Of a stretch of DNA of 64,000 nucleotides, positions 6,535 through 58,875 are shown piece after piece (positions within the stretch are counted from its first letter, which is position 1; the number at the start of each line of letters is the position of its first letter). Location: contig JAFCMP010000094.1 of assembly GCA_017506865.1 (NCBI GenBank), positions 186,001-250,000 of the forward strand, read 5' to 3'. Position numbers and translations under genes: made by a program. Source of the DNA: Tribonema minus (Eukaryota > Sar > Xanthophyceae > Tribonematales > Tribonemataceae). Under the pieces are notes generated by a model, which searched no databases, was not told the DNA's origin, and worked only from the letters and a program-made list of their open reading frames with translations.

Positions 6535-6607
6535 AGTGTAACCCAAGTGTACTCATTATATCAGTTCGGAAACCGAACTGATATAATGAGTACACTTGGG
6601 TTACACT
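6535..6607. repeat. Perfect 35-bp inverted repeat with 3-base loop
   Basis: Bases 6535-6569 are the exact reverse complement of 6573-6607, separated only by AAA. The transcript of either strand would fold into an uninterrupted 35-bp hairpin. Sequence outside the arms does not pair, so the boundaries are sharp. It could be a small foldback element, a hairpin RNA gene or a foldback artefact of sequencing or assembly. No protein is encoded. Confidence 0.9.
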
Positions 6608-20960: not shown

Positions 20961-23900
20961 CTAGTACTGGCACAGGTCCTGTAGCAGATTGGTGTCAGGG
21001 TTCCTGCGCAGTTTCTCGGGGCCCCGAACTTCAAGTTCCGCCAGGCACTGCGAGAACAGCCACTGGACCTCGGGGAAGCGGAAGCAGCTGTGGCTCACGT
21101 TGCGGATGGTGGCGGAAGGGTCCTGCAGAGTTGAAGTAGCAGCAACGGGCAGCAGTGCTCAGTGTGTGTGTGTGTTTGTGCGTGGGTTGTGTGTCTGTGG
21201 GTGTGTTGACGTTTCTGAATTGAACGGATGTAGGGAAATGTAGAGCCTGGTAAGCACGCACGCAGCAATCTGATGGTTTTGACGGCTCTGTGCGTGTGAG
21301 CACATTGCCAGCAAGGCACCAAGGTCAGCGCCGGACTTCAATCCACGCACTTGAAGTCATCACAGAGACCTTGAGGTATGGCAAAGTGCGTGCACTGCTT
21401 GCGCTGATTAAAGTGCCTGAATAAAAGCTTCTCGCACGCAGAGCTGCCTTGGTGTAAAGCTAAGGAGAGCACTGCAGTTCAACGAAGTTGGGGCATGAGG
21501 GTCAGGTGGCCTGCGTCACTGGATACCCACTGCGCAAGGCCAACGACTTCACGCTTGAAGTGGCGCCTGAGTCATCGCATCAACAGGGTGACCGTGGCAC
21601 TTCAAACATGAGGTAAGCAGGGGCCCTTCAAGCATTTCATGTCGCCAACCTTTGCAGATAGCAACGCATTGCATTCTTTTCCGCACGGCGCAACTGAGTG
21701 CCTACATAGCTGCATCTGGACCTGGCATTGCAATTAAGCAAAACTGACTGCGATACAGTCTCACAATGTTTGACGGCAGCGGTGTACAATCTAAGCAACT
21801 GAGGCATGCAATATACTGGTGAGACATGCTGCAGAGCTACAACAAAGTGCCCAATTGCGGTGCACAAAACATCATCTGCTAGAGGTGTAATACAACCATA
21901 CGCGGTGCGAGTCTGCAAGCAAGTTCACAGGCGCAGTTTTTCAGCTCTCGTGTTTGTTGCTTTCAGAAGCAAATTGAAGTGCCGGTGAGTAGCTTCATAT
22001 ATGAGCATCATACGGTCTACACTCCCTTGCTTATTACATGCGCGGCAATCTAGTGTCGCTATGTATAGTGTTTTGCAGATGCGACATAACTTCAATTTAG
22101 AACTTCAACTCACATTTCGCTGCATGTCCAGAGGGTCCTGCGAGGGCAGCAGCAAGCAAGCAAGCAAAGGGAGCACATGAGCCTGAGCAGGTTCACATCG
22201 CTCGTGTATGGGTGCGTTGTGCTTCTCTGAGGCAACTCACAGCTCCCAGCCACAGCATTTCTCGACATGAACACAAACACACACACGTTTGCTTCAAAAT
22301 ACCTCCAGTGACTCAGTCTAGTATACTTACATGCGGTTAAAAACGCTGATGAGCTCTTTCTCAACATGAAGATCAAGTGCGTTGTCGTATATACTTTGGG
22401 TTAGAATCACTGATACGCTCTTTCTTAATGTGAAGTTGAAACTTTGGCATCGTGCAGAAGGAAGCGCCGCATGCCGGCCCTCCCGCAGTCATGCGTGAAA
22501 ACAGGCCGCGCATATGCCACCTCAGAGCTACTGCACTGGAAACATGCAGCGGCTGTGTGCGCCTGTTGGCAAGGCGTGACACGAGCGCGACATGTTGTAA
22601 AGAAGACACGGAAGGCGCACGCAAGTCGACTTCAAAGGCGTGCGTGAATAGAGCGCAGAGGCTGCCGGAAGCGGGGTGCACAGGCAATGCCCCCCAGCAA
22701 ACAGTTAGACCACGTAACCGCCATGTCGCACAGAGGCAGTGAACACACACATGTCGAGCACGGCCATGCATTTATGAACAACACACCACTAATTCATGAA
22801 TGGATCTGTGAAACTGACCTACCTCAATGATACGCGCTGCCGCAGCACGCAGGCCCGAGACCATTGATTCATGAACAGCACCAATCACTCGTGAATGAAT
22901 CTGTAAAACCGACCTCGATGGTACGCGCTGCCGCAGCACGCAGGCCCCGTGGCCATTCATTCATGAACAGCACGCCCATCACTCATGATTGAATTCACAA
23001 AACTGACCTCGATGGTGAGCGCTGCAGCGGAGCACAGGCCCGTGGCCGCGTTGACGGTTCATTCATGAGAACCAACCAATCATTCGCGAATGAAATCCAT
23101 GAGCGAATGTGTGAAACTGACCTCGATGGTGAGCGCTGCCGCGGCGCGCAGGCCCGTGGCCGCGTCCACCGGCAGGTCCAGGGGGAAGGGGCTCCCGAGG
23201 CGCCCCCTCCCCACGCTGATGCCGTAGCTCAGGGGGTCAAAGGCCCTGCTGTAGAAGGCGAGAAACTTGAGCAGGCAGGCCCCGGGGGTCATGTCGCTAA
23301 GGTCTTCTGCCTCCAGTTCAGCTTCGGTCATGTCGGGGGGGTCAAGGGGGAAGGCGTCACGAGGGGGGCCCAGGTGATTGGCCGCCGCCACCTGTGCGCA
23401 GGGGGGGAAGAGGGGGTGGGGGAGGGGGTAAATAGGGGGTTCAGTGGGGGCTGAGGATGGGGGGTATGTTCAGGGTGCAGTCACATATGCGGGGGGGGCG
23501 AGGAGGGCCGCAATGAGGGCGGAATGGAGGGGAGGGGAAAGGCAGCAAGGGCGGGAAGGGGGGGCGGAGTAGAGGCGCAGCGCAACCAATCGTTTGCATC
23601 TTGAGGTTCTGCAGAAAGAAACATTGTTGATGAGCATGAGCAGAGCAACAGGCGCTTGGCAGTGCTGGCAGGCGCAATGGTGAGACAACGCATTCACAGC
23701 AACCTGACTCCCACACCCCCAGCTTCAACCCTCATGCAAGCCCCCCTTTGCACAGCGTTCATTGCTGGCATGGCGAGCGCCGCTGCTGCCGGGGCAAAAA
23801 ATGCGCACACGCGCGCGTGCGTTGCGTGCCTCGCCTCAATTGCACTGCTGCATGCGCGCAATGTCGGGCAAACAGCGGGCTGCTATCGCGTCGCGCGACA

Positions 23901-26900: not shown

Positions 26901-29399
26901 GCTGTCAAGTGTTCACAAGACACACGACATTGAAGACTCAGAAAGCAAGCTGGACATCTACAGTACCATCTGGGCTCATTCGCGCCCTTAGCGAGATCTG
27001 ATGCTGTGTACAAGAGAAAGGGGAGTGGCACTGAGGGGCAGCTGGAGCTGACGTCAGTCGAACGACTTGCATCGGCTTAGGGTTAGGGTTAGGAACTTGG
27101 CACCAATGAACATGAGCTGGCGGCTTCTGTGTCGTTGGCGCTGTGCGGCATCAGGAGGGCTGCCCCTCCAGCGTGACAGTCGATTTGCTGAGCATGAGCA
27201 TGTTTGGAGGCTCTTTTTCTTAAGGGGGGGGGGGGGGGGGGGGATACCAGCATCAAATGTTGTGAATGATCTGCTGGTGTTGCATTATGCACGTCACGAC
27301 TGAGATGTGCCCATGCCAGATGCGAATCTCGCGCACTCGTTCCAGACCTGATGCAGTCCCCCCATTTTTGCCCCATAGGTGCATCTTCTGCTGCCGATGT
27401 TGCCCACAACCACATCAACATCATCGCATCGTGTTGGGCCTTCACGCATAACAGCGTCGCCTGTGTTGAAGTAACACCTGAAAGTATGAATGCGCACCTT
27501 TGCTCCAAGGTGCATGTTCGGCCGCCGATGTTGCCCACATTCCCTCTCACATTTGCCTCAAAGCACAAAACACGCAGAGTTGAACTTCACACACAACTTC
27601 AACTGTGACATGCCCCCACCTTAGCGCCGTAGGTGTATCTTCTGCCGCCAATGTTGCCCACAACCACATCCACGTCGCTGCTGGGAAGCTCCAGTCCCGT
27701 GTAGACGCTGCCATACGGCTGCACCTCTGCTTCTATCCACACACCAGCAACGACATCTCGAACGAGCTCCATGACCTGTTGGAGCATCACACACAGAGCG
27801 TCCGCACAACTGGTGTGTCAGCGGCATGTGCAGGAAGCCTGGCTAGCATTGACTAACCTCAGTAAGGAGACATCAAAACTCTTTCAGAGGTGTGACATGC
27901 AGCAGCGCTCAACCTCTGCCTCTATCCACACGCCTGCAACAACGTCCCTTACGAGCTCCCTGACCTGTTGAAGTATCACACACAACATTGGTGGCACGTC
28001 AGCCATGCGTACAGGGAGCCTAGCTAGCGTTGACCACCCCTCAGTAGAGAAGGAACGAGGCCATTTCAGTGGTGCCGCGTGCAGCAGTGCTCAACCTGTG
28101 CCTCCATCCACACGCCTGCAACAACGTTAACCCTAGTACAGTGGAGAGACGACATGAATCTTTGAGTGGTGCGACACGCAGCAGCGCTCAATACGCGCCA
28201 CACGCCTGCGGCGACGTTTGAAACGAGCTCCATGTCCTGTTGAAGCGTAAAACACGGTATCGGCACGACTGGCGCGTCAGCGGCATGTGCGGGGAGCCTG
28301 GATACGGCTAACCCACAGTAGGGAGACAACGAAACCCTTTGAGTGGTGCAACACGCAGCACCGCTCAACACCCGCCACGCGCCTGCCACGATGTCTCGGA
28401 CGAGATCTATGGCCTGTTGACGTGCCACAGCCCTAACCCTAACCCTAAGCCAGCGGTGTGCGCGGCGAGTGCAAAGAAACCCTGACCTTCGCAGTGTACG
28501 AGGCCGCGCACGCGCTGCACGGCGGCGTGACGCGAATAGTCCGCGAAGCGCACACAATTCTGCATGATCTGTTCACGTGCCACAGCATCGGTAGTGCGCG
28601 TGGGAGTGCGCACGACGCTGACCTTAGCAGTGTACGAGGCCACGCACGCGCCACGCGGCGCTGCACGGCACGCCGTGACGGCCCACAAAACGCACTTGAT
28701 TCTGCACGCAGCGGTGCAGCGCGCTACTTGCGTAAAACCTGTAACCGCCATGTAAGCCGCCACAAACATTGTAACAGCCGAAGTTGCCGTACCTTGCCCC
28801 ACGCTCGCCGCCGCGGCCTCAGAACCCTGGCGCGCTTGGCCATGAAGTCCGCTATGTTCTCGTCCAGGCGGCGCACCAGCGCCACTTCATCAAACCTGTA
28901 CCCGCGAATTGTAACCGCAAGGGGGGATCATTGCCGAAATTGGCGGTGAGGTGACGATTGGAATTGGGGGTGGAGATTTGCAATCGGAGGCCAGAGTCAC
29001 TTGGTCAAATCTTCAACCGCAAGTTGTAGCCGCAAGGGGGGGAGGGGGGAGGGGGCTCAGGACTGGGGGGGGGGGGCGGAATCATTGCTAGGGTTGGCCT
29101 TGAGGTGAGCATTGAGATTGGGGGTGAGGGTGAGGAGGAGCAATTCAACTGAAGTATAAACAGAAGTCAAATGGTGTTTGTTGGCTTGGATTTGCTTCAA
29201 AATCTTCCGGCCGGATTTAAATTCAACATTTCTTAATTACAAGACCCCAAAAATTATACCATCTTTAGTAACAATAACCCCTTCGCTGTTTGGAGGCCTG
29301 CGCCACTACGTCAAACCTGTTACCGCAAGCTGTGAATAGGGGGGGGGGAGGGCTCTGGGCTGGGGGGGGAAGCGGGATCATAGCCAAAGTTCCACACAT

Positions 29400-29447
<48 letters not shown>

Positions 29448-44800: not shown

Positions 44801-47800
44801 AAGGTTATTGGTGGAAGGCACTTGCGGCTAACCATCCCTTGTCACCTAGAGCTCAACGATATTTTTGATTCGTTTTTCAGTTGTGGGCATCAATGTTTGG
44901 CTCCACAGTTTGCACTGGCATTGAAAGACTGACTCTGCTACTGAGCCACTGGGCATTCACTTACTGCCAACGCGAAGATACAACGGTTGACAGCTTGCAT
45001 AACACGTCCACCCTGTGTGTATGTATGTGTGGCAACAAAAACAATGCAATCAAAGCACCACCACCTGTTGCAAGAACTCCACCTGACTATATACAAATTA
45101 AAAAAAAGGAATACAAATAATTACATCTCCAGAAGTAAAGGAATAATTGCCGTAGGAGTCAGCCAGAATTCAAGTTCCAGTTAATTTCTAGCACTTGCGG
45201 CTCACCATCCCTTGTCACCTAGAGCTCTACGATCTTTTGATTCCTTTTCATTTGATGTAGGGCTAGGGTTACCCATGTTAGGGTTAGGGTTAGGGTTAGG
45301 GTTAGCACAGCAGCGCTCACCCATCCGGCATCGCCACCGCCATCAGCGCATGGATGCCATCGACATTGTTCCTTTGCGAACACAGCAAAAAAACCGGCTA
45401 AATTGGGCAAAGTTGACGTTCGGCTTAGGCTTAGGATTCATATTAGGGCTAGGTTCACCCCTGCACGTCAGCGCTCACCCATTAGGCACCTCCACCGTCG
45501 CCAACGCATAGATGCCATCTGATTCCACAGGATTCTATATGCACCCTTTGCAAACGTGTGGAGTGCATCAATCAAGCCGTCGGCATCAGGGTAGGCCGCA
45601 GTTCAGATGAGGCTTGGGATTGAAAGGTAGGTTTTCTGTGGCCGCAGCGCTCACCCGTTGGGCACTGCCACCGTCGCCAGCGCATAGATGCCATCTGCAT
45701 CAGGCAAAACCTCAACGCGTTGAACGGGCACGGAGCCGTATTCGCCCCTCAGAAGAGCCTCGCGCGATAGCGTTGGCGCTGGGGTCTGAGACCCTGAGGC
45801 GGCGCCTCCTGGGCTTGACCTGACGTCACAGGGGCACAAACAAGGGGGGTGGGTGGGTTCAGTGAGGTGCCGAGCACGGTGCACATGCGATGTACATGTT
45901 GCAGAGGTGCAGAAGTAAAATTTGAAAGTGTATGGGTACATATGGATACAGGAGTGCGTGTACCTGCACTCATACTGTGCGGTAGTGAAAATGCTTGTGC
46001 CCTGTTGTTTGCGCATGCTAATGTGATGTGCGTACTGCAGAGGTGCAAATGTGATAGCTTGAAGTGTATGGGTACGTCTAGGTACAACAGTGTGTGTACA
46101 TGCACTCGTACTGTGCGGTAGTGAGAATGCGTTTGCCCTGTTGTTCGCGCATGATGCGTGCATGGCGCCCGTCAAAGCTGCGCCTCTTGAGCTTGATCTG
46201 ACGTCGCAGGGACACAGAACGGGGGTTCAGAGGTGCTGAGGACGGCGCAGTTGCGGTATGTATGTATATACCATAGGCATGACTACCTACTTCAAGTACT
46301 CGAAGGTATCACTGTAGTAAAAGTAGGCTATTTATGCATCACATTGACATGAGAAAACCGGAAACTATGGACGTCCGTTTGCTCGTGTCTCACTTCAATT
46401 GAGACATCAGAATTTTCAAGAAATGCAAATGACGACCCCCCACTTGCTGATGAGCAGCGACACGCTGCAGTCAAACCTTGTACAATGCGCGCCCTTGTGT
46501 GTCTGTGAAGCAACTTGAACTTTACTGGCAAAGCGCAGCAAGCGCAACTGCACATGTTAGACGAGCAATGACACAGAAGTTGAGGGCACAGATATTAAGG
46601 CTAAGTACGTGTATACCTCCAAGAATCCAAATATACGTGACATATGTGTAGATAGTTAGGGTTAGGACTAGGGTCAGTAGTATGTGACACGGTTTCAGGA
46701 TGCATGGTTTGCCAAAAGGGAATGCACTAGTACCAAGGCTATGCCACTTCCCCAGGCATGTCGCTGTGAATCAGAGGTTTGATGGTTTTTCTTTTACACA
46801 TGCCCTGAAGAGCGTGAATTGCGCCATCGTCATATACGCACAGCATGCGCAGACCACGCGCACCCTAACCCTAACCCTAACCCTAACCCTAATCCTAACC
46901 CATGCACATTACATTATTGCAGAGCGCGCACAAACGATAGGGCATATGCATGGTCACTATCGCGCAGTATGTGCATGTACACATCCACCTCTGTAGTTAT
47001 ACGCATGTACCTATATGCTTCACATCATCACCTTTGCAGCTCTGCACACGCACGTTATCACTGCATTTAATCCCGTACACGCACATGCTGTACAAGTACT
47101 TCAGACAAGGCTGCTGCAGAGAAGCAACCTTCACGATGGCATAGGACACCCAGCCTCTCGTGGGGCCTTGATGAGAACAATTCCACAAGCACAAATACTT
47201 TGTTGTGCACATACATGGCTTCACTTCCGGTACAATAAGCTCGTGCACCACCACCGCCAGGGTTGATGAATACAAATTCCACAAGTGCAAATACTTCTGT
47301 ATGTGCATACATGGCTTCACTTACGGGACAATAAGCTCGTGCACCACCACAGCCAGGGGGTTCCTGGGCTGGCACAGTCGGTAGCTCGCACAGACGAGCT
47401 CGTATAGGCCCACCGGCCCGTAAATATGCAGCGGCTCCGCATTGTCGGGCAGCTGACACAGACCAACGGGAGGGGGGGGGGGGCAGGCAAAAAAGTAAAA
47501 TGGGGTGAGGCGCGGCCATCGATACCGCTGCAATTCTAGAAGTGCAACAGTTGTTGATAACTGTGTGGTTATGCTCAAAGACTTCAAAAGTATATATGCA
47601 GCGGCTCCGCATTGTCGGGCAGCTGATGCATACCCCAGACGGGGGGGGGGGGCGGGGGGGGGGGGGCAGGCAAGAAGATCAATGAGGCGATATGTTGGGT
47701 TGGGTGAACGCAGTCGCGTCATAGCTGCGATCCAGAGAGTGCAGTAGTTGTTGACAACTTTGTACGCACAGGCACAAGTCAACAAGTAGAGTCAATGAGT

Positions 47801-50246
47801 CAGAACTCATGGTGTCAGCCATGTGACTGAGCATCGCTGCCTGCTGGAGTGATATCTCAGTGCCTTTCTAATGCCATTCTGAGACGGCCGTGTGCAGGAG
47901 CAGGCCCTGCGCACTGCAGTGTGAGAGGTACCGCACAGGATGAATGGGAAAACATGCACGAGTCGATGGGTAGAGTCAATTTGGCAAAGTCACAAAGCCG
48001 TGTCATGTGAGTCATGCTCGCACACAGCACCGCAGCAGCAGTGCTCGCCGCATTCACTGCATATACTTAGCATATATGCATGTACACATACTGCACAAGT
48101 ATACTCTGGATAAGTATATAGTATAGTCTAGCGCGTTTGGTAGTCAGCGCCACGAATGGGGTCGAGTGCGCCACACCTGCCGGCTGGGGCCAGCTTCGGG
48201 TTAGGATTGGGGTTAGGGTTAGCACAGGCTCGCCGCAACGCAGGCGCCGCATGTATGTAACTTCAAGTATGCAAGTACTGACGCAGCGTCATTGCGGCAC
48301 AGGCAAGATGAGCTCTACGATCTTTTGATTCGTTTCTCACATGCGAGGTGCATGAGCAGCCCCCCGCAAAACGACAGACGTGATGGCCATGCAGACACGG
48401 TATTTGTGTACTTAAAGTGTTCAAGAGTTGACGGAGCGTCATGACGGCACAGGGCAGCAGCGCTCACCGCGAGCTACGCGGGGTGCATCAGGCGACAGAT
48501 GTGATGACCGTGCAGACATAGTGTGTACAGTACGTCAAAGTATTAAACAGTTGACTGAGCGTCATCACGGGACAAGGCAGCAGCGCTCACCGCGAGGTAC
48601 GCGAGGTGCCTGAGCAGCCTCTGCAAGCCAAAGATATGATAACGAGCAGCCTCTGCAACCCGAAGACATGATCGCAGTGCAGGCGCAGTATGCATGCAGT
48701 AATCGAATTAATGGGGTGTCGCAGCAGCGCTCACCGCGAGATACACGAGGTGCATGAGCAGCCCCGGCAGCCCCAAAGACGTGGTCGACGAGCAGATACA
48801 GTATGTAATGGAGCTATTGATGTATATGTAACTATTGATGTATATGGAACCATTGATGGAGCGTCATCAAACACACCTAACCCTAACCCTTACCCTAACC
48901 CTAGGCAGCAGCGCTCACCGCAATGTGCGCGAGGTGCATGAGCAGCCTCTGCAAGCCAAGGACATGATCACAAGCAGCCTCTGCAAGCCAAAGACGTGTT
49001 CGCCGTGCAGGCCCGGTATGTATGTAGTAATCAAATTAGTAGAGCGTCACGAAACAAGGCAGCAGCGCTCACCGGAATGTATGCCAGGTGCATGAGCAGC
49101 CCTGGAAGGCCCAGGACGTGGTCGCCGTGCATGTGCGTTATGAAGAAGTGCGTGAGCTGGCTCTGCCGCACAACGCTGCGCTGCAGCTGCTGAGCCGTGC
49201 CCTCGCCACAGTCAAACAGCCACCCACCCGTGGAGAACCTGGCAGCACGGGGGGGGGGGGGGGGGGGGGGGGGGAGTATCATCAGGTCCCAGTATACTTC
49301 AGCGTTTCACTTGTACTAAAAGTGGGGGGTGTCATGTGCTGCGAAGTGAAGACAGTCAAACAGCACCCGCTCGTGGGGAACCTGCAGCGCGCGAAAGGGG
49401 GGGGGGGGGGGATCATCAGGAATGGCTGTTTAAACTACTCGGCGTATAGGAGCGTTGTCCTTGAAATGGGTAGTATTACTCAAGAAAGGGTAGCATTACG
49501 TACTAAAGAATGAAGACAGTAAAACAGCTATTGCCCATGGGGGGGTCATCAGGTGTGGCTGTCAGCCCAGTGTATACTTGGCACTCTGCTTCCCCTGGTG
49601 CCGCGGGCAAAGGACTAACCCTAGGGTTAGGGTTAGCTTAAATGCTACCCCGGACCCTCAACCGTTTACATTAACCAGGCCGTAGATGACCTCAGCAGAT
49701 ATTGCACCAATGGCAGAACATACACACTGCAGCATGATGCGGGTGCTTTACAGCTTGAACACTGAAACAGCTCTGGGTGCGCTGGCGTATTGGCACACAC
49801 ATGGCAACAAGCCGTCATTTGCCGCGGCGCTCAACATGCTGCAGCGCTCAGCAAGGTGGCATCCACGTGTACTTCATGCGGTACTGTGGAGCAACACTAC
49901 CTTGATTGCTGATGATCGAGGCAACTTCAGGTGCAGTGGCGTGTTGTCATGTCAGAAAGTGGCTCCGTCACGGCAGTCAGAGGCCAGTATCTGATGATCG
50001 GGACTAGCATAGCTTCACACAAGGCGCGTAAACAGCGATCCGCTCAAGCTGCCTCACCAGTGGTAGTTTGCCACCGTAGACTGAGGCGCGGTCATGAAAG
50101 CATCAATCAACTTACATGTGGATATGGATACATACTTGTAAAACATGCTTCTACATACGGACACATACATACCGTAGCGCAATCGCAGACGCGCCGCGGT
50201 CGATGCTAGGCCCCCCCGCTCCCGTCCCCAGAAACACCAGCTCCAT
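38863..50246 (-). CDS. tRNase Z (tRNA 3' endonuclease), 8 exons
   Basis: Exons 50246-50173, 49238-49073, 47452-47325, 45819-45655, 44182-43930, 42605-42470, 40813-40635 and 39315-38863 join in phase to 517 residues. It matches RNase Z, the metallo-beta-lactamase-fold enzyme that cuts tRNA precursors after the discriminator base. The start is [14 protein letters not shown]. The zinc motif HMHGDH is in [27 protein letters not shown] follows, then PCFGYAACE...GRIDVRKL and [13 protein letters not shown]. The C-terminal zinc and HEAT motifs are [20 protein letters not shown] and LVLTHIS. The tail has Ala/Gln-rich additions. One active-site His is shifted by one residue (HIGLPCFGY against the usual HxVPxFGY). 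A single lactamase domain makes it short-type. An upstream targeting exon is possible. The donor of exon 5 is GC rather than GT. Confidence 0.9.
39455..39905 (-). repeat. Echoes of the tRNase Z exon 8 acceptor edge
   Basis: The start of exon 8 (encoding [16 protein letters not shown]) recurs at about 39458-39520 and 39836-39895 with its upstream acceptor region. Variants encode [17 protein letters not shown] and [17 protein letters not shown]. Copies lie inside a larger repeated unit of about 380 bp. Confidence 0.92.
40333..40374. repeat. Interstitial CCCTAA/TTAGGG tract
   Basis: Six or more telomere-type units, with a strand switch near the left end (gggttaccctaacc), lie in the last intron of tRNase Z. 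Confidence 0.92.
40400..40630 (-). repeat. Echoes of the tRNase Z exon 7 donor edge
   Basis: The exon 7 end ([11 protein letters not shown] with a CAG|GT donor) recurs about 110 bp apart as a [11 protein letters not shown] version with CAG|GTACCT, and as a weaker third copy near 40440. Confidence 0.88.
40880..41650 (-). repeat. Array of exon 7 acceptor echoes
   Basis: A unit of roughly 120 bp with the exon 7 start (GEFAKAVNA codons), CTGCTGCAG acceptor and gcgcagagcactgac sequence is repeated at about 40920, 41040, 41245, 41470 and 41590. The two units nearest the exon are almost identical over about 120 bp. TTAGGG-like words are mixed between units. Confidence 0.9.
41840..42360 (-). repeat. 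Four echoes of the tRNase Z exon 6 donor edge
   Basis: The end of exon 6 (encoding [16 protein letters not shown]) and its GTGAGC donor recur near 42310, 42215, 42035 and 41860. cactggagtggcctctgagg is the most conserved core. The frame is largely kept in the nearer copies. Confidence 0.93.
42680..42960 (-). repeat. Four echoes of the tRNase Z exon 6 acceptor edge
   Basis: The start of exon 6 ([10 protein letters not shown] codons) with its acceptor recurs near 42710, 42790 and 42915, and in a weak form near 43030. The conserved core is gtcaggaacgatcacgacct. Confidence 0.93.
43201..43271. repeat. Interstitial TTAGGG/CCCTAA tract, both orientations
   Basis: TTAGGG units are followed by CCCTAA units in one 70-bp stretch, giving a head-to-head arrangement like a small telomere-fusion scar. 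Confidence 0.88.
43505..43840 (-). repeat. Echoes of the tRNase Z exon 5 donor edge
   Basis: Three further copies of the exon 5 end lie in the intron: at 43745-43838 and 43598-43728 (long), and at 43508-43550 (short). The two long copies encode [18 protein letters not shown] followed by TPAPRGRK without a break and end in GTACGT donors. The copy joined to the real acceptor ends in a GC donor. Confidence 0.95.
43841..43900. repeat. Degenerate TTAGGG tract
   Basis: A roughly 55-bp run of TTAGGG with TTACGG and shortened variants lies between exon 5 of tRNase Z and its first echo. Confidence 0.88.
44185..44660 (-). repeat. (GTGA)n arrays with exon 5 acceptor echoes
   Basis: Runs of GTGA on the + strand (CACT in gene sense) alternate with three copies of the exon 5 acceptor edge, near 44225-44275, 44330-44385 and 44460-44515. 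Each copy has the CTCAG-like acceptor region and TTLSAAAQR-like codons. In gene sense the CACT runs form the pyrimidine-rich stretch before the acceptor. Confidence 0.9.
44784..44880 (-). repeat. Dispersed intronic element, copy 3
   Basis: The element in intron 4 of tRNase Z, with cgaccaaggttattggtgg, cttgcggctaaccatccc and tgtcacctagagctcaacg. Orientation relative to the host gene is the same as in other copies. Confidence 0.85.
45190..45252 (-). repeat. Dispersed intronic element, copy 4 (partial)
   Basis: A right-hand fragment of the element: cacttgcggctcaccatccc through ctctacgatcttttgattc. It lies in tRNase Z intron 4, about 310 bp from copy 3 and in the same orientation. Confidence 0.85.
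45261..45304. repeat. Interstitial TTAGGG tract
   Basis: About six TTAGGG units, some imperfect, adjoin element copy 4 and the first exon 4 donor echo of tRNase Z. Confidence 0.92.
45310..45530 (-). repeat. Echoes of the tRNase Z exon 4 donor edge
   Basis: The exon 4 end ([13 protein letters not shown] with GTGAGC donor) recurs at about 45465-45525 as a [10 protein letters not shown] version and at about 45315-45370 as an [10 protein letters not shown] version. Confidence 0.92.
46165..46260 (-). repeat. Echo of the tRNase Z exon 4 acceptor edge
   Basis: The sequence around the exon 4 acceptor (ctgacgtcacag and its flanks) recurs about 380 bp upstream in gene sense as gatctgacgtcgcaggg, followed by the same ggttcagaggtgctgaggac-like intron sequence. 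Confidence 0.8.
46861..46898. repeat. Interstitial CCCTAA tract
   Basis: Five CCCTAA units and one CCTAAT variant lie in tRNase Z intron 3. Confidence 0.92.
47155..47300 (-). repeat. Echoes of the tRNase Z exon 3 donor edge
   Basis: The exon 3 end (VVVHELIVP codons, donor GTAAGTG) recurs at about 47226-47260 with a GTACCGGAAGTG version. The following intron segment (tggcttcac...tgtgcacat) is repeated with it. Confidence 0.88.
47575..47670 (-). repeat. Echo of the tRNase Z exon 3 acceptor edge, with poly-G
   Basis: The segment gcagcggctccgcattgtcg, followed by ggcagctgatgc, repeats the start of exon 3 and its acceptor. It is followed on the + strand by a run of more than 20 G broken by one C (47641-47667), the counterpart of the G run after the real exon. 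Confidence 0.9.
48198..48221. repeat. Interstitial TTAGGG tract
   Basis: Three to four TTAGGG-like units with one variant lie in tRNase Z intron 2. Confidence 0.7.
48303..48340 (-). repeat. Dispersed intronic element, copy 5 (terminal fragment)
   Basis: Only the terminal block remains: gagctctacgatcttttgat followed by tcgtttctc. It is in tRNase Z intron 2, oriented like the other copies relative to the host gene. Confidence 0.7.
48430..49010 (-). repeat. Array of tRNase Z exon 2 donor echoes
   Basis: The exon 2 end (LLMHLAYIP with GTGAGCGCTGCTGCC donor) recurs near 48910, 48725, 48580 and 48455. All copies keep the GTGAGC donor and the gcagcagcgctcacc core on the + strand, while the coding part decays. 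Short words such as gagcagcctctgcaagcc are repeated inside the array. Confidence 0.93.
48876..48905. repeat. Interstitial CCCTAA tract
   Basis: Four to five CCCTAA-like units sit between two exon 2 echoes of tRNase Z. Confidence 0.88.
49249..49274. repeat. 26-base poly-G run at a splice acceptor
   Basis: Twenty-six G on the + strand lie ten bases beyond exon 2 of tRNase Z. In gene sense this is a poly-C tract directly before the acceptor (GTGCTGCCAG), taking the place of the polypyrimidine tract. Shorter G runs follow the acceptor echoes at 49398 and 49540. Confidence 0.95.
49330..49560 (-). repeat. Echoes of the tRNase Z exon 2 acceptor edge
   Basis: The sequence coding STGGWLFD and its acceptor recurs near 49345-49400 (cagtcaaacagcacccgctc, then gtggggaacctgcag) and in a shorter form near 49510-49550. 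Each copy is followed on the + strand by a G run. Confidence 0.9.
49615..49638. repeat. Interstitial CCCTAA/TTAGGG inversion
   Basis: CTAACCCTAGGGTTAGGG: telomere-type units meet head to head, in intron 1 of tRNase Z. Confidence 0.85.
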
Positions 50247-50773
50247 TCCGGAATTGAATCCGGGCTGCTTCTCCCGTTCTATTGCTTGTTTATGTGACAT
50301 GTACCGCCGTTGCCGACAGACCACACCCTGTATGAGCAGCGGAAGGGGCTGGGTGAGTTGATTGTGCCTATGTGTGCTGCAAACGATGCTTCCCTATGCG
50401 ACTGCCATAGCGGTAGGCGCGTTGTGATCGCAGCAGGCTGTTTCAGCCATGTCGCAGTGGCAATAAGTACTGCGCTTCCGGATCGCTGCAGGCAAGCGCA
50501 TTTGACGCAGCTGCGTTCCGTGTTGGTACATGAGGCACCCAAATGGCATGACTAACTGATCGATATTTTTGAAGAACAGAGCTCATTGCAGCAAACAGCT
50601 TATCATGTAGAAGTATAAGCTTGTATGCATGTATGTATGCATGTATGTATGGTGGAATGCATGAGTAGGTAATGTAACTGTAGCAGCACAGGCAGACCCC
50701 TTCAGTAGGTGCTCTGACGCCCACAATGAAAACGACACGAGTAATGGCGCGCGCCAATCACGAACTTCAACTC

Positions 50774-51136
50774 TCAATCATGAACTTCATCACCAGCAGC
50801 ACGCACGACGCGCGTTGCTGTGACGGCACCAGCAGCACTACTGTAGCAGCAGCTGCTGCAGCTAGGGTGTGTGGGGTGAACATCTGAGCAGCATGTCTCA
50901 GCAGCATTGGCCAGACATCTGCAGCAGCGCTCAGAGTATGGCACAATGCGGTCAGAAGCAGCAGCTGTAGCAGCGCTCAGGCGACCACGCATCCAGAACC
51001 TCTGACCATGCAGCTGCAGCTGTAGGGCTTGGCTGCTGCTGGCTGCTGCCGGTTTAGGATTAACGTTGAGGTAGGTGCTGCACTGTACTACCCAAGCATA
51101 GACAACAGCCACCAATGCGTGCTGGAGCTTTGTCAT
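50774..51136 (-). CDS. Possible 5' exon with signal-peptide-like start
   Basis: The frame opens with MTKLQHALVAVVYAWVVQC, which looks like a signal peptide, and continues through Ala/Ser-rich sequence. It lies on the strand of tRNase Z, 0.5 kb upstream of [10 protein letters not shown] possible acceptor exists at 50265. If spliced, it would give an organelle-targeted tRNase Z. I could not find a donor in the right phase, so this remains a weak candidate. Confidence 0.2.
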   Translation of the reverse strand: MTKLQHALVAVVYAWVVQCSTYLNVNPKPAAASSSQALQLQLHGQRFWMRGRLSAATAAASDRIVPYSERCCRCLANAAETCCSDVHPTHPSCSSCCYSSAAGAVTATRVVRAAGDEVHD

Positions 51137-53018
51137 AGAGTGCAGGGAGGCTGAGGGCTGTAGGCGAGGAACGGTGTGGCGATGGCGTTGGAAAGCCGGG
51201 CTCTGTGCAACAATGTACTGTATACGTTGTGAAAAGCTGGTTGAGCAGTGCTACACGTCAACCAGAGTCTAAATTATATGTGTATCACAGGGTCATGTGT
51301 GAACTGTCAACTGTGATCTGCCTTTCCTGGTGTGTCATGAGGCCTGCTGCTCTGGTTCGCTGTAAGACTAAGTGTGGTCATGTGTTGCACTTGATGTAGT
51401 CAGCAAGGCCCTGTAATTGTGCAACAATTGACAGACAGAAAGGCGTCTGCAGCTGCAGCCAAGGGCTGGTGGGACCGCATGCGAGCATCACGGTGCTGGC
51501 CATCAGTGCTTGTTGCACAGCAACAATGGCGCACGACAACGACCCTGCACGCCGGTGCGCATGATGATTTGTGTATTGCAGGTGCTGCTGCGCATTGGTT
51601 CCGTGTAACGAATGCCTGTCTTTCTCAGTCACAAAACTGACTACTGAAATTCAACAGCAGTCCCGCTTGCGGAACTGCTTCTATACGCGCATCATGGATC
51701 CCTTAGGCACGCACAATTTGACGAGCGTCTGCACACCCATGGTGGTGTACTGCGGCTCACCGCTGATAGCCATTGGCATTGCTCCCTGTGCAGCAAGGTA
51801 TGGATGTGTTTTTGTAGCTTCGCCCCTCCTCTTAGCGCCTCTCTTCGCATCAGCATACTCCTGTGCTGTCGGCACAATGTCCAAGATCCTGTGGTTCACT
51901 GCTCTCCCTCGCGTCAGGCTTCTTTAAATAGGCGGACCGGCGCTCGCAGCGCTTCTGTACACTTTATGCAGCAAGGGACCATGCGCCTATGCCTGGATTA
52001 TTCAGACAGCGTCTGTGGTGCTAATGCCTCTGGACTAAAACTTCAACACAGGAAGAAGAAGTTGAAGTTTCTTCAGTAATCACAGCGGACCGGAACCTAG
52101 TGCTGCCTCGTCATGGTCCTGCTCGCTGCACAAGCTTTAGGGCGAGGTTGCCGCTGCACAGGCAAGCGATTTGCATGCGCAAACAAGCGATCGTTAGTAA
52201 CCGATCGTTTCCAGGTGCTGTGACGTGACGTGTATTCCCGTGCCGCCGCTGAGCGAATGGTGCTCAGTTCTGCACTCATTTGCACGTTTGTGGGGCGCTG
52301 ATTCAGGAGTGCGCCTGCTCTAGCGCGGTCCAGCACCATCGCTCACTATGCAAAACCGCAAAGCATTGTAATGTTCTTGCGCAGTATTTGCACCTCAAGA
52401 GCTCATGAGCTGTCGCAAGTCTGGGCTTCTTGAACAGACTGGACACGGAGTGCCGCTGTCACGCTCCATTTTGAACAAACTCGTGACACCCACACTTACC
52501 CCGACAAATGAATGGGGCGCCCCCGCGCGGTGTTCTACATGCACCATCAACGCTTGCATTAGCATTGTAACAGACAATTGACTGCTCGCACTGCCTCATT
52601 GCGTCTTTGTATGTGTCGCCTGCACGACGACAGGCGGGCGGGCGCCTCCTGTCTTCCGCTCCCAGCGCAGCTTTCTCAGCGGCAAGTCCGATGCACCGCA
52701 GTCGTCGTGGAACAGGTGACTCCCGCACAGACATGCAAATACCCATTGACGGCTTCATACGAAATGGATGAGAACACTGCGCGTGTGCAATACATTGTGC
52801 ACACTTTCATTCGGCTGACATGACACTATGCGCTGCGAATGGATGGAGACATTGCCCATGTGGAATACATGGTGCACGCTTTCACTCAGGTGACATGACA
52901 CTGCGCGCAGCGATACCATTTGAGAGTCCAGGCTGCCCCTTCCTTTGCTGCCACCCAGGTGCCCCCCCCCTTCCCTTCTTGCTCTCCAGGGGAGGGGTAT
53001 GTCGGCGAACTGTTCATG

Positions 53019-53139
53019 AAAACGAATCAAACGATCGTAGAGCTCTGGGTGACAAGGTATGGTCAGCCGTCGAATTGAATGCCTCCCACCAATAACCGTG
53101 GTCGCCGCTGCTGCAGCAATTGGCCACGAGTCAAACAGT
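53019..53139 (+). repeat. Dispersed intronic element, copy 6
   Basis: The reverse complement of copies 1-5 on the + strand, hence the same orientation relative to its host gene: aacgaatcaaacgatcgtag, then gtgacaagg, aataaccgtgg and ccacgagtcaaacagt. It lies about 85 bp upstream of the first mapped exon of the DUF6787-like gene. Confidence 0.85.
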
Positions 53140-53224
53140 ACTGCCGTATCCACAGTAGTTTATGTAGCCATTGTCTCACAATGACACCCCCCCCCCCTCC
53201 CCCCCCCTGCTTCTCGTACGCTAG

Positions 53225-54927
53225 ATTTGTGAACTGGACAACGCAGCCAGCGCCGCAGCACAAGCGCTGGTCTGCCCCCTGGTTCGGGGAGCAGGCCCTG
53301 CTGTGCACCGTGTTTGCGATAACGGGGTCTAGCAGCATGTACCTCGTGCGGCCGTTTCTGCCCAAGATAGGGCTGGAGGGGTCCTGGAGAGAGGGCCCGT
53401 GGAGCTACAGGATTGGCTCTTTCATACTGGTGCGTCACAGTTGATGTGAACGATTCAAACGACCGGAAGGGCTCTAGGTGACAAGGTGTGGTGAGCCACC
53501 AGGGCCTTCCACCAATAATCGTGGTTGCCGCTGCAGCAGCAATTGACCACGAGTCAAACAGTGCCACCACGTGATGTTTGGCGAGGTAGTGGCAAAATCT
53601 AACTTCTGATTACGCAGCTGGTGCGTCACAGTCGAAGTTTGCCAAGGTCAAAGCCGCATGCGACACAGAGCGTGCTGTTTGGCGAGGTGGTGGCCGAATT
53701 CAAGCTTTTTGATACACAGTGATGCGTCAAAGTTGAAGGTTGACAAGCGCAAATAATCGCATGCCTCAGGTTGTACTTCACCTTTGTTGTTGAAGTTGGT
53801 TTTCACGTTGTTTGCGCTCTTTTTTATGTGGCTTGTCACAGGTGAGCCCCATCTACACGGCGCTGCTGCTGCTCACGGGGTCGCTAGCGGGCAGGCACAA
53901 CTACTTTGCTGCTATCGCGCGGCGTATGTGGTGAGTACGCAACTTGAACTTCAACGTTCTCATTTTCAGGCTGCACTGCAAATGAAGGATTTGTGGCTGC
54001 AAGCACGCACTCTGGAGCGATCAGTGGCACCGCCGCTGTTGTATCAAGACAGCCGAACAGGCACCAAGTGTTCTGACGCCGTGAAAATCTGCAGAAGCTC
54101 TTGTGCATGGATGAACTTATTGCTGTGAACGTTGCTTCTGCACTGGAAATGGGCCTTGCTGCCGTAGTAATGGACCTACGGCCACAGTCAAAGTCAGAGT
54201 CCAAAAGCATGGTGAGGGCATTGGTAAGCCCTTCAGGCGGGTTCATGGCGCTGTTTCATTGATTTTAAAGGCCTGCAGGTCAAGATGCTATGTACCTCGT
54301 TGAGGCAATCTGCCCCGCTGCCCATGTCGATTTGAAGTTGCCATCATAGCAGAGAGGCGCGCCATGAAAGTCAATGGACGTTGAACGTGCCAGCTATCTT
54401 GACCCCGACGGTGTCTGCCACCTGCAGCTGGAGCTGAGCAGCCGTTTCCGAGTGCTACAGTTATTGGCGGAAAGGAGATGTCAATGACTGTCGCCGCAAC
54501 GCACGCGCCTTCCGGTCTTGAACGATGAGGGGCCAAGCAAGCACTGTTTTTCTCCTCCTTTACTGCGGGGGGGGGGGGGGTAAACACGGGCCACTGAAGA
54601 CCCCAAGCCACTCCACTTTCTGCAGTAAAACCCAGCGCTGCGTTTGCTTTGTTTCACCCACTTCACCCACGACTCGCGCTCGTTCGTGCTTCTGATGGCA
54701 GGGGGCGTTTCCTGCCGCGCCCCCTCGCGGAGCGCGTCGGCTGCACGCCCGCCAAGATCAAGGCCAGCAAAATCACAACTTCAACTTCAACCGCAGCACC
54801 TGCAACCTCAACTGCAGCAACTGAAGCCACTGCGAAGGCACCGAGTGCCTCTGCTGCTGCTGCTGCTGCCGCTGCGGGCCAGACTGGCAGGGGCGCTGCC
54901 AAGGCGGCTCAGAGGGGGGGGGCATAG
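53225..54927 (+). CDS. Small membrane protein resembling DUF6787 (5' end not found)
   Basis: Exons 53225-53429, 53842-53930 and 54702-54927 join in phase (codons 1+204, 87+2, 1+225) to about 172 residues plus an unmapped N-terminus. The core reads ALLCTVFAITGSSSMYLVRP, then GPWSYRIGSFIL, then VSPIYTALLLLTGSLAGRHNYF and ARRMWGRFLP. That gives two hydrophobic segments and a GRHxYF...MW pattern like the small two-helix DUF6787 family as I remember it. The tail is Thr/Ala-rich. Splice sites are CTG|GTGCGT, TGTG|GTGAGT and acceptors CACAG and GGCAG. The first mapped exon starts one base into a codon after a C-rich tract, so at least one upstream exon is missing. Function is unknown; an organelle membrane is likely by analogy. 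Confidence 0.6.
53446..53571 (+). repeat. Dispersed intronic element, copy 7
   Basis: A full-length copy that starts about 16 bases after the donor of the first mapped DUF6787-like exon: gaacgattcaaacgaccgg ... gtgacaaggtgtggtgagcc ... ttccaccaataatcgtgg ... gaccacgagtcaaacagtg. It is oriented like all other copies relative to its host gene. Confidence 0.88.
53572..53770 (+). repeat. Echoes downstream of the DUF6787-like exon
   Basis: The donor context ctg|gtgcgtcacag recurs at about 53611 and, weakly, at 53718. Both copies sit in a roughly 105-bp unit that begins tgtttggcgaggt and ends with a tgccaagg- or tgacaagc-like segment. Confidence 0.8.
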
Positions 54928-55631
54928 GGGTATGTAGGGTAATGAGTGGGCAGCAGCAGCATCAGTGCTCTGCGGTGCTGCGCAAAGTGCTTTGGCTGAT
55001 AGCTTGGGGGGGATCGGAATCTCAGCAGATGTGTCCATGTCTGTGTGCGTGCATGTGCATCGTTTTGCTTGCGGCGAGGGCGCCTTTTTGAGCGCTGCTG
55101 CGTCTCGTGCCCTCTTCTTGCTAGAGGCGTGTGATCCATAGGGTGTGCACAATGGTTTTGTGCGCCAAACACAGAGGCCCGGGCGCCATCACACACACAT
55201 GCATGGCGGAACTGAAGAATAGCATTCAGGCGGTATCCAGCTCATTTTGTGTGTTTGTTCGCTCCTGTGCGTGTGCTTTGTGATTAATGCGTCGTGGATT
55301 CATGCATTGCGGAACGAAAGAAAAGTATTTTAATGGCACTTATGGCACTTACGGGGTTTGTGTGTGTTTCTTTATTGAAACACTTTGTGGTAGATGTCTG
55401 GAAGAAATGCCGTGTTATTTACGAATCAGGATAAACTTCAACACGACGAACTTCAAACATTGGAGCAGAGGAGAGGAACTGAAGCAGCTCTGGGCTCGTG
55501 ACAGACGCTGCGACCAGCTTGCAGTCGTCCGTGGCTGTTGCTCTACGAACACTGCGAGCGGAGCCGCGACCGAACTTCTCGGTCGATCGATTCTCGAGTC
55601 GGAGCTTGGTGGGAGCACACGCGGCACCGAC
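54928..55631. other. Intergenic region upstream of Derlin
   Basis: This region holds the 3' UTR of the DUF6787-like gene and the promoter and 5' UTR of Derlin. The Derlin frame stays open upstream to 55287 but without Derlin-like sequence, so I take 55632 as the start. No clear promoter element was identified. Confidence 0.45.
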
Positions 55632-58600
55632 ATGGATGGAAATGCAGGCGACCCACTGCAATGGTACTACGAGATACCTCCAGTCAGCAGGACGTACATG
55701 ACAGCCGCCTTCGTGACCACGGCACTGACAGCTCTAGATCTTGTGTCGCCGATCCAGTTCTTCTTAAACTGGAAGCTGGTGATGCAGGGGCAGGCTTGGA
55801 GGCTGCTGACGACGTTCCTGTTCTTCGGCACCCTCAGCCTGGACTTCCTGTTCCACATGTACTTTCTGGCGAGGTACTGCAGGCAAGTGCTACACTGTCG
55901 GTGTCGTCTCGACCTTCCTTGCTTTGCAGGAGTGCGCTGCACGTGGTTCTACTATGTGGCAGAGGTGATCTTGGTATACCTATCCGTCAGGCAAACTGGG
56001 TCTGTGTTTTCATTCGGTTGTGTAAATCAGGTGGCAGTATCACTGTTACGTTGCTGCTATCATGGTGCTCGCCACACAGCTGCTGCAGCAAGGCAAGCAT
56101 CACCTTGAATGCCACTAGCATCACCATCGGCGCCACTAGCAGAAGCAGCACTCAAGCAGGTTGTGCAGCCAATACCCTGCCACCGCTGCCGCCACAGCAT
56201 TCGCCACCAAATCAGTGCTCAGCATATCAGTGCTCATTTTGCTAACCCGTCACGGCACGGGTTTGCTGCACATGCGCCGATACTACAGGCTCTTGGAGAA
56301 AGGTGAGTTCCACCGGAAAACCTCCGATTTCGTCTTCTTTCTGCTCAAATGTTTGCCAACAAATCAATGCTGAACATATCAGTGCTCAAATTTGTTGCAA
56401 CACTGCTAGGCACGCCGCCGCCGCCGCTGCAGGCCCTTGGAGGAGGGCGAATTCCACCGGAAAACCTCCGATTTCGTCTTCTTTCTGCTCAAGTTTTCGC
56501 CAACAAATCAGATCAGTGCTCAAATTTGCTGACCCGTCACGGCACTGCTGCCGTCACCGATACTGCAGGCTCTTGGAGGAGGGCGAATTCCACAGGAAAA
56601 CTTCCGATTTCGTCTTTTTTCTGCTCTTCGGGGCGGTGCTCATGCTGGCCGCGCAGCCGCTAGTCTCGCTGCCGTTCCTCGGCAGCTCGCTGTCCTTCAT
56701 GATGGTGTACGTGTGGGGGCGGAGGAATGAGCACGTGCGCATGTCGCTCTTTGGGCTGCTGCCGTTCACCGCGCCGTACCTGCCGTGGGTGCTGCTGGCG
56801 GTTAGCGTGCTGGTCAACAACAGGTGGGTCTGAGTCTGAATCTTACTGGTCCTTGAGTCGTGTTGCGGATTGCTGCTGAGCGTAGATGCTTGTGGAGTAT
56901 GTATGTTCACGGCGCCGTACCTGCCGTGGGTACTGCTGGCGGTGAGCGTGCTGGTGAACAACAGGTGAGTCCGACTCTGACTCGTATATGCCTAGCGTAG
57001 ATGCTGGTCGGGTATGTATCATAACATTAACGTGTATGTTCACGGGCGCCGTACCTGCCGTGGGTGCTGCTGGCGGTGAGCGTGCTGGTCCACAACAGGC
57101 AAGTCTGAGTCTGAGTCATGCTTTGCGTCACATTGCGGAGATGCTGCTGAGCACAGATGCTTAGTTCGACAAGTATGCATGTATGCCATGGCGTCGCACC
57201 TGTCGTGTGGGTGCTGGTCAACAACAGGTGAGTCTGACTCTGACTCGTATTTGCTGAACGTAGATGCTTGTCGGATACACATATGAGTTCGCCGTACGTG
57301 CCGTGTGGGTGCTGCTGACGGTGAGCGTGCTGGTCAACAACAGGCGAGTCTGACTCTGAGTCGTGTTTGAGTCGTGTTGCGGAGATGCTGCTGAGCAGCA
57401 GTGCTTGCGGAACATTGAATGCATGTATGATCACGCGCAGAGCGCATCGCGGGGAGGCGGAGGTGCTGATCTAGGGTTAGGGTTAGGGTTAGTGCCACTG
57501 TGTTCATATTCGTTCTTGAGCGGGCGTCGACATTCAATTCATCAATGTGGTCAAATATGAACTGATGCGTTGCGCATGCTGAGCGGGCGATGGGTTGAGT
57601 CAGCTGATGAATCGCACAATCAGCGATTCTCCAATCCATTCATGATTTAAAACTGGGTTCATCTGAAGTTGTAATGTCACTTGTGCTACATGCGCGAGGA
57701 TTGACCACGTCGCAGCGCTTTAGTTGTGATAGTCATGAAGGCAATGTGATCATCGTAATCATCAGGAGCATATGGTCGTTCATCCCTATCACGCTGTCTG
57801 GGTTTAGGGTTAGGGTTAGGGTTAGGGTTAGGGTTAGGGTCAAAATCTTCAACATGATGCATGCATGTCGGCGCGGAGCAAACAAGCTGGCCTCCCTGAT
57901 GCCACTATGACAGCTCCCGAGCAAGGGGGCGCGCTCAGGCAGACCGTCACCTCTGAACTTCAAAGCATCGCATGTGAAGTTGAACTCGGCAATGACAGTT
58001 GAACTTGAACCTGTTGTGCGCAGCGGAGCGCTGTCAACTAACGCAGAGCGTCCCCGTTTGTGTGAACCTCATAACATCACACTGGTTGAAGTTTAACATG
58101 ACAGTTGAACTTGAACTTGTTGCGCACAGCGGAGCGCTGTCGACGGATCTGCTGGGCATAGGCGTGGGACACATGTACTACTTTTTGGCATTCATATACC
58201 CAGAGGTGAGCGCGCTGACGAAGCAGGCCACCCGCGCGCATACATGACATATACGTGTGTATACTTCATATATATACTGATGTACCTTTTTGACCAGGCC
58301 ACCCATGCACATACCTGACATGGCATGTCTGGATAGTACTTCTTCTTCGAAGTATATGAAGTGTAGACAGTATAGATGGATGAGTGCGCTGCTTTTTGGC
58401 ATTCATTGAGTTTAGCGGCGCGCTGACGAGGCAGGTCACCCACTACCCCCCCCCCCCGCCCCTGCAGGTGGCAGCGATCCGCGGCAGGCGGTTATGGCGC
58501 GTCATCCACACGTCGCACCTGCTGCAGGTCCCGTGCTGCGCATGCGCTGCTGCTCATACGTGCAAAGACATGCGCACGGCGTGCAACTCCTCTTTGCGAA

Positions 58601-58875
58601 CCACGGCTGCTTCTCAAGCTGCCCCCCCCCCCCCTCCCCCCCCTTCCCCCCCCCAGGTGGCAGCGATCCGCGGCTGGCGGTTACGGCGCGTGATCCACAC
58701 GCCGCGCCTGCTGCAGGTCCTGTGCGGCGAGCGCGCACTGGCGCACGCAGAACAGCCGCGCATTGTGGAACCCGCTGGCGGAGCACTGCCCCCTCAAGGG
58801 GGGAATCGGCTAGGGGGACGCGAGGGGGGGGCGGGGTGGGGGTGGGGGGGGGGCGGGCGCGCGCACCAGGACTGA
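55632..58875 (+). CDS. Derlin (ER-associated degradation membrane protein)
   Basis: Exons 55632-55882, 56569-56823, 58130-58205 and 58657-58875 join in phase to 266 residues. Derlins are inactive rhomboid-fold proteins of the ER membrane that help move misfolded proteins to the cytosol for degradation. The sequence matches along its length: QWYYEIPPVSRTYMTAAFVT, then the WR motif in WRLLTTFLFFG, LDFLFHMYFLARYC, RKTSDFVFFLLFGA, SFMMVYVWGRRNEH, PYLPWVLLAVSVLV, then GIGVGHMYYFLAFIYPE with the GxxxG-type motif. The tail is HTPRLLQVL. No signal peptide precedes the domain, which favours the ER form over the plastid-import (SELMA) Derlin. Intron 1 is GC-AG (CAG|GCAAGT). The extra copies of exon edges in every intron are described separately. 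Confidence 0.93.
56220..56568 (+). repeat. Two echoes of the Derlin exon 2 acceptor edge
   Basis: Copies of acceptor plus the first roughly 60 coding bases start at 56289 and 56433, before the real exon at 56569 (spacing 144 and 136 bp). All three encode LLExGEFHRKTSDFVFFLL in the same frame and keep a CAG acceptor. In the first copy a GTGAGT has arisen inside the coding part. Confidence 0.96.
56906..57343 (+). repeat. Four echoes of the Derlin exon 2 donor edge
   Basis: Copies of the exon 2 end at 56906-56964, 57039-57098, 57187-57227 and 57288-57343 repeat the PYLPWVLLAVSVLVNN codons and the donor. Donors are GTGAGT, GCAAGT, GTGAGT and GCGAGT against GTGGGT in the real exon. Spacing is roughly 115-140 bp. 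TTAGGG tracts follow at 57474 and 57803. Confidence 0.96.
57474..57492. repeat. Interstitial TTAGGG tract
   Basis: Three TTAGGG units lie in Derlin intron 2, just beyond the exon 2 donor echoes. Confidence 0.9.
57803..57840. repeat. Interstitial TTAGGG tract
   Basis: Six uninterrupted TTAGGG units, one of the cleanest arrays in the window, lie in Derlin intron 2. Confidence 0.95.
57992..58045 (+). repeat. Echo of the Derlin exon 3 acceptor edge
   Basis: The sequence gacagttgaacttgaac, the cag acceptor and cggagcgctgtc recur once, 107 bp upstream of exon 3. Confidence 0.93.
58285..58445 (+). repeat. Echoes of the Derlin exon 3 donor edge
   Basis: The segment ctttttggcattcat ... gcgcgctgacgargcaggycaccc spanning the exon 3 end and donor recurs at about 58390-58442. 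A partial intron-side copy (accaggccacccatgcacat) lies at about 58295. Confidence 0.88.
58440..58656 (+). repeat. In-frame echo of the Derlin exon 4 start, poly-C tracts
   Basis: A first copy of the exon 4 start begins at 58468 (VAAIRGRRLWRVIHT), after a C-rich tract and CTGCAG. The real start is at 58657 (VAAIRGWRLRRVIHT), after a second C/T-only tract and CCCCAG. The stretch from 58468 to 58656 has no stop in this frame, so using the first acceptor would insert 63 residues. Confidence 0.95.

Follow-up and report, generated by a model that had tools for sequence, protein, structure and literature searches.

Genes and junction copies in the window

The stretch of DNA analysed here (the window; 64,000 nucleotides) covers positions 186001–250000 of contig JAFCMP010000094.1 (C94) in the 158-Mb, 554-contig assembly GCA_017506865.1 of Tribonema minus (Xanthophyceae). 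A light-harvesting protein encoded in this assembly is most similar to fucoxanthin chlorophyll a/c proteins (FCP-D, Fcpb5), which suggests an alga with chlorophyll c. It holds a tRNase Z gene and an exon of an MTPAP-like nucleotidyltransferase on the minus strand and a Derlin gene on the plus strand. The introns of all three contain same-strand copies of their own splice junctions, here called echoes, each comprising the exon edge, the splice site and adjoining intron. The existence of such copies, first proposed by a sequence-only reading of this DNA, was confirmed at 15 of 17 tested window junctions, with 43 copies; five of the 17 (Derlin exon 2 donor, Derlin exon 3 acceptor, tRNase Z exon 6 donor and both nucleotidyltransferase borders) were included only after their echoes had been noticed. 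Exons of tRNase Z were located through alignments in three frames with structures of ELAC1 and of bacterial RNase Z, those of Derlin through PF04511 and that of the nucleotidyltransferase through PF22600. Their borders were chosen from reading frame, GY...AG consensus and homology, with sequence and repeats in view.

In tRNase Z, exon 1 (50173–50246), placed by homology, has a donor without echo, and exon 2 (49073–49238; PDB match 3zwf) is flanked by one acceptor copy (49352–49420) and by an array of six donor copies (48341–49009). The remaining four exons were likewise placed by homology. Exon 3 (47325–47452) has one acceptor copy (47590–47690) and one donor copy (47170–47262), the latter exactly head to tail with a period of 96; the reference runs from −34 to 62 and the abutting copy from 62 to 157. 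Exon 4 (43930–44182) has three copies on each side (acceptor 44243–44586, donor 43507–43839), as does exon 5 (42470–42605) with four (acceptor 42670–43065, donor 41802–42367). Exon 6 (40635–40813), whose donor was set by eye, has five acceptor copies (40904–41655), with a tandem period of 124 and 96% matches over 40789–41118, and two donor copies (40396–40574).

Derlin exon 1 (55632–55882) also has a donor without echo, so that the exon-1 donors of the two genes are the only tested window junctions with no copy. Derlin exon 2 (56569–56823) has two acceptor copies (56223–56490) and four donor copies (56905–57396), and the exon 3 acceptor at 58130 is echoed once, at 57961–58038, with an exon part of only 15 nt. 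The nucleotidyltransferase exon (27620–27775), whose borders were placed by eye on either side of the homology match, has four acceptor copies (27907–28473) and two donor copies (27317–27539). Neither gene start, of tRNase Z or of Derlin, had an upstream echo (score 9 each; two cases only). Two of the donors, those of tRNase Z intron 4 (43930) and Derlin intron 1 (55882), are GC, and the three copies of this tRNase Z junction read GT at that place.

Recurrence across the genome

To the six window introns we added 24 introns on other contigs, whose borders were set by script, blind to repeats. Six-frame Pfam scans yielded few exons; the exon sources were kinesin (134 matches) and class-I aminoacyl-tRNA synthetase (30 matches). 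The script modelled 25 introns in 10 loci, of which 21 were kept (score at least 5) and four dropped (score below 5); exon pairs with a wide profile gap were also dropped, and one pair was skipped when loci L030 and L009 were modelled later. The resulting set of 30 introns (21 script-modelled, six from the window, two from L030 and one from L009) represents 13 genes and 60 junctions. Because Tandem Repeats Finder (TRF) and blastn self-hits miss many arrays, the copies containing indels, we used Smith–Waterman alignment with a query holding 100 nt of exon, and counted a copy at a score of at least 22 with at least 12 nt of exon.

Half of the junctions (30/60) have at least one copy, for a total of 77 copies: 10 of 12 in the window part of the set and 20 of 48 in the 11 loci on other contigs. 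The frequency of echoes follows intron length, with copies at 20 of 24 junctions in introns of at least 1 kb, 9 of 28 in introns of 500–1000 nt and 1 of 8 in introns shorter than 500 nt. Arrays at donors are distinct from those at acceptors, as the sequence-only reading had held, and 9 of the 21 echo-bearing introns are echoed at both ends.

A duplicated unit takes in the edge of the exon, the splice site and part of the intron; in a minority of copies the alignment covers exon alone or intron alone. Exon parts measure 30–70 nt in 61 of the 77 copies, and several of 13 printed alignments show abutting head-to-tail units. Spacing has a median of 127 bp, within the 75–160 bp initially suggested, but its spread is wider (5th–95th percentile 58–213 bp). 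Copy number, put at one to five per junction by the sequence-only reading, reaches 10 at the L026 donor.

A second line of evidence came from protein matches nested within 1.5 kb of each other. Nine such pairs were present among 226 kinesin, synthetase and CCT matches genome-wide (Lhc matches, which form gene clusters, were left out of the count). In eight of the nine, one member is a partial copy and the other a longer exon, and in all eight exon heads are copied upstream and exon tails downstream; the ninth consists of two copies. Junction-spanning copies were found in all six loci chosen from this list and inspected at the DNA level. Those of L033 and L034 are probably young, being nearly identical to their source.

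The copies were compared with shuffled sequence. In 27 introns (six in the window and 21 elsewhere), donor 60-mers scored above every one of 60 dinucleotide shuffles of the same intron in 14 of 27 cases and acceptor 60-mers in 17 of 27 (31/54 junctions together), compared with 11 of 72 mid-intron 60-mers. The copies are also local. At score 22, junction 60-mers match their own intron in 28 of 60 cases and other introns in 1 of 1740, the sole exception joining two kinesin genes. In 26 of 26 cases the best copy is closer to the junction it matches than to the opposite one, none of 32 edges has a copy in the intron across the far side of its exon, and inverted copies occur in 1 of 60. The claim that copies sit on the intron side is supported. 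BLAST between introns returned 33 matches. Of the 25 listed, 23 measured 21–38 bp, and their length and recurrence suggest telomere-like tracts; the other two were 57 bp long and came from one dispersed piece. Two occurrences of this 57-bp sequence lie in tRNase Z intron 3 (minus strand) and one, inverted relative to them at 84–86% identity, in the L017 kinesin intron at 4527; it is possibly a short dispersed element.

A probable bias towards exon edges

Copies at junctions do not by themselves imply that junctions are targeted. Under a uniform process, tandem duplications would arise anywhere, exonic ones would be purged and those spanning a junction would remain as visible survivors. Any tandem-duplication process is expected to leave such survivors, the copies look neutral (see below), and, at score 20, repeats flank 17% of positions drawn at random and without filtering from the sequence analysed, within 350 bp. 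For this reason we tested for bias directly, using windows that lie wholly in introns, where exon conservation gives junction copies no advantage. In these, 18 of 23 young repeat families (78%) were anchored at an exon edge, compared with 6.9 expected from intron and unit lengths. The excess was similar at higher stringency (16/19 versus 5.5 expected) and present at the loosest threshold (23/41 versus 12.0); a binomial approximation gives 2.5e-6 for 18/23 and 9.1e-7 for 16/19. Exon-edge-anchored families occupy 625 of 1971 intron bins (32%), and unanchored families occupy 145 (7%).

Direct comparison of positions agrees: at score 22, 28 of 54 junction 60-mers but only 4 of 72 mid-intron 60-mers found a match. 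We give more weight to the family-anchoring test because the mid-intron control used the longer side only and had no low-complexity filter. To place these rates, we simulated unbiased duplication with five parameter values (60 introns per setting, with an initial length of 120 nt and growth up to the lengths observed), measuring mid points one-sidedly in the same way. Junction and mid-intron rates were 0.77 and 0.83, 0.54 and 0.43, 0.34 and 0.19, 0.18 and 0.25, and 0.14 and 0.11, that is, ratios of 0.7–1.8, far from the 28/54 and 4/72 observed. The simulated anchored share was 5–18%, except that the lowest mutation ratio gave 60–67%, together with repeats at 83% of mid-intron points.

The distribution of repeats outside genes points the same way. 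Repeats occurred in 84 of 444 windows across the tRNase Z span (exons included) and in 31 of 152 across Derlin, but in 5 of 251 in the intergenic gap between these genes (50260–55620) and in 1 of 983 in positions 1–20000, where GC is lower; other 10-kb pieces, which have no gene models, ranged from 0 to 14%. Of 20961–58875, the span of the sequence-only reading, such introns thus make up only a part. Duplication thus appears tied to genes and, inside genes, to exon edges, and with anchoring in excess of expectation, simulated ratios far from those observed and a nearly repeat-free gap, we regard uniform duplication as improbable.

Drift and age of the copies

The copies appear to drift as near-neutral junk. 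Exon parts retain an identity of 0.88 (donor) and 0.86 (acceptor) and intron parts 0.74 and 0.78, corresponding to divergences of 0.12 versus 0.26 for donors and 0.14 versus 0.22 for acceptors, so that intron parts are 1.6–2.1 times more diverged. If the exon is held and only its copy drifts, the exon part is expected to gather about half the divergence of the intron part. Third codon positions take 45% of mismatches, as would be expected if change in the exon itself falls mainly on silent sites. Frameshifting indels are present in the exon part of 33 of 75 copies (those with at least 20 nt of exon), which makes use of many copies as exons unlikely.

These figures bear on the idea that selection keeps the arrays, whether as decoy or alternative splice sites or for stepwise splicing. 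The GY or AG dinucleotide is indeed kept in many copies, and in acceptor copies AG is conserved at 0.93–0.95 against 0.86 for the exon part. Yet GT in donor copies, at 0.90 and 0.83, is no better conserved than the exon part (0.88), and with so many frameshifts and intron parts that diverge as unconstrained copies would, a function for the arrays seems very improbable.

The sequence-only reading had near copies almost identical and distant ones decayed, and concluded that repeats seem to be added at the exon and pushed outwards. The data lean weakly in that direction for both the gradient and the ordered addition: the nearest copy is more similar to the exon than the farthest in 14 of 21 arrays and less similar in seven (means 0.88 and 0.82), and similarity correlates negatively with distance in 9 of the 13 arrays with at least three copies.

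Exonic boundaries provide a further clue to how arrays grew. In many arrays, among them those at the donors of L026, L025 and L017 (4527), many copies have about one common exonic boundary. Some of the copies therefore reflect array amplification and not new founding events, which suggests that array slippage or unequal exchange may also add copies. At some junctions successive copies differ in their boundary (for example 92, 100 and 63 nt; 89 and 13 nt; 74 and 33 nt), and the founding duplication therefore seems to recur, although alignment trimming may contribute to these differences.

Shared boundaries, together with the association of echoes with long introns, could also be explained without any mechanism acting at edges. 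If the founding duplications took place while introns were about 100 nt long, nearly all would have touched a junction, and the resulting arrays could then have run away by slippage or unequal exchange. Runaway of this kind should, however, fill intergenic DNA with arrays as well, and the counts of 5/251 and 1/983 repeated windows show little of this; it also fits poorly with the differing boundaries at one junction and with the echoes at both ends of 9 of 21 introns. We consider it unlikely.

Intron lengthening and intron birth

A known route to new introns is the tandem duplication of an AGGT-bearing exon piece (the Rogers model), and the sequence-only reading had cited it as a known mechanism of intron creation. 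One intron is suggestive: at Derlin intron 1, the same letters, TACTGCAG, close both the upstream exon and the intron. Across the 30 introns, however, the expected signature was absent. The tail of the upstream exon resembles the tail of the intron no more within introns (6.83) than between them (7.15), and the head of the intron resembles the head of the downstream exon about equally (7.03 within, 6.74 between). Because junction-spanning copies hold intron as well as exon sequence, the intron must have come first. The kinesins L017 and L019 share intron positions (RLLQ|ESLGG and RLLQ|DSLGG), which suggests that their introns predate their arrays. Creation of these introns by exon-piece duplication is accordingly hard to credit, though young introns elsewhere in the genome might form in that way.

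The broader claim of a continuing, genome-wide mode of intron growth fared better. Echoes recur on other contigs, include apparently young copies and track intron length; 9 of the 30 introns lack a copy at either end.

A proposed process of intron growth

We favour, with a probability of roughly two in three (0.68), a near-neutral and recurrent tandem duplication, biased to exon edges, that lengthens existing introns. In each event a segment of mostly 60–210 bp, reaching from the exon into the intron beside it, would be duplicated in tandem, and such events would recur. The full exon would retain an adjacent splice site, leaving the mRNA unchanged and turning the displaced copy into intron. 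Displaced copies would then drift freely, sometimes multiply by array slippage or unequal exchange, and decay. Splicing presumably uses the exon-proximal site, a choice that exon definition would favour. We infer that founding duplications favour exon edges through mutational bias and not through selection. The cause may be transcription- or splicing-linked breakage or nicking near exon edges, followed by fill-in or template-switch repair, but this is a guess. A more tentative proposition, which we rate at slightly less than an even chance, is that introns here become long chiefly through a mutational process targeted to exon edges, one with a probable link to transcription or splicing, rather than through transposons or internal repeats.

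Several observations weigh against the favoured explanation, in addition to the shared exonic boundaries described above. The sample is small, at 13 genes, with eight kinesins supplying 19 of the 30 introns, and splice sites were set by homology, frame and consensus. Two donors, L022 at 2170 and L026 at 480, switch status with alignment settings. Five of the nine introns without copies exceed 700 nt (704, 793, 820, 854 and 1533 nt), and other growth routes or complete decay must therefore exist. A single 3142-nt intron supplies four of the five families that lack an anchor at the main threshold, and one nested protein pair, on contig C479, resembles two true exons and not an echo. Finally, an inverted copy at the end of the window's contig (see below), considered and rejected as a second haplotype, shows no array difference at 99.92% identity.

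The echoes resemble several known systems and differ from each. Introners, or introner-like elements, are related copies dispersed among introns that change intron content genome-wide. The likeness is a genome-wide process altering intron content, but introners are dispersed whereas echoes are private to each intron, cross-intron matches of junction 60-mers being limited to the single kinesin pair. Minisatellites and intronic tandem repeats are head-to-tail arrays with diverged units, and echoes share with them the same-strand, head-to-tail copies with a period; unlike minisatellites, echo arrays enclose a functional exon edge in 18 of 23 young families and are rare in the intergenic stretch examined.

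Other parallels come from individual reports. One on potato RdRp (PMC4974935) describes duplication of a parental intron/exon structure including the 3′ splice site. Together with Drosophila cases (PMC2891723), it resembles our system in being a local tandem duplication of exon and splice sites whose extra copy is spliced out. In those single cases, however, a new intron is born, whereas here existing introns are lengthened, repeatedly, at both ends and in many genes, and without the birth signature. Short direct repeats at intron borders, given as 4–30 bp and read as insertion footprints at the two borders in PMC11782384, are likewise direct repeats near splice sites. Echoes, in contrast, are mostly 60–210 bp apart, lie on one side, are arranged in tandem and frequently number more than one, and the borders at the two ends of an intron are dissimilar. 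Among the literature matches listed, no title or abstract opening described junction-spanning arrays as a mode of intron growth; this is weak evidence, as subscription papers were thinly covered.

Intron lengthening by means other than transposon insertion is poorly explained, and the echoes point to exon-edge duplication as a little-described route to longer genes. They constitute oriented, datable fossils at many junctions, from which rate, start points and dependence on transcription or splicing become measurable. They also provide natural tests of splice-site choice, in which as many as ten close copies of the correct site are apparently passed over.

Other features of the window and assembly

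Interstitial TTAGGG/CCCTAA tracts are common, with 75 in 234 kb and none in a reversed-sequence control; examples in the window lie at 43229–43271, 46861–46901 and 57801–57842. Where such telomere-like tracts fall at copy boundaries, we considered them as break-repair filler, left by telomerase-filled breaks, and rejected the idea for want of enrichment: at score 20, 15 of 75 tracts (20%) had repeat flanks, compared with 26.5% and 17.4% in the two controls.

Positions 33335–37636 contain long GC-rich open frames on the minus strand (983 and 370 aa) without a Pfam match. In the low-GC positions 1–20000, of which 15 kb was scanned, no Pfam match was found other than a weak, below-cut-off EsV-1-7 cysteine-rich motif at the very start, on the minus strand.

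Loci L028 and L029 were considered as haplotypes of one another and rejected; only ~770 bases align, at 90.5% and in opposite orientation, and we take them for paralogs. The inverted copy at the contig end spans 15,150 bp at 99.92% identity (window positions 45206–60350 against C94 275211–290354). Its two arms differ through small changes of length in simple runs, through indels of one base and through one substitution within a run of C, and the copy is either an assembly fold-back or a very recent palindrome.

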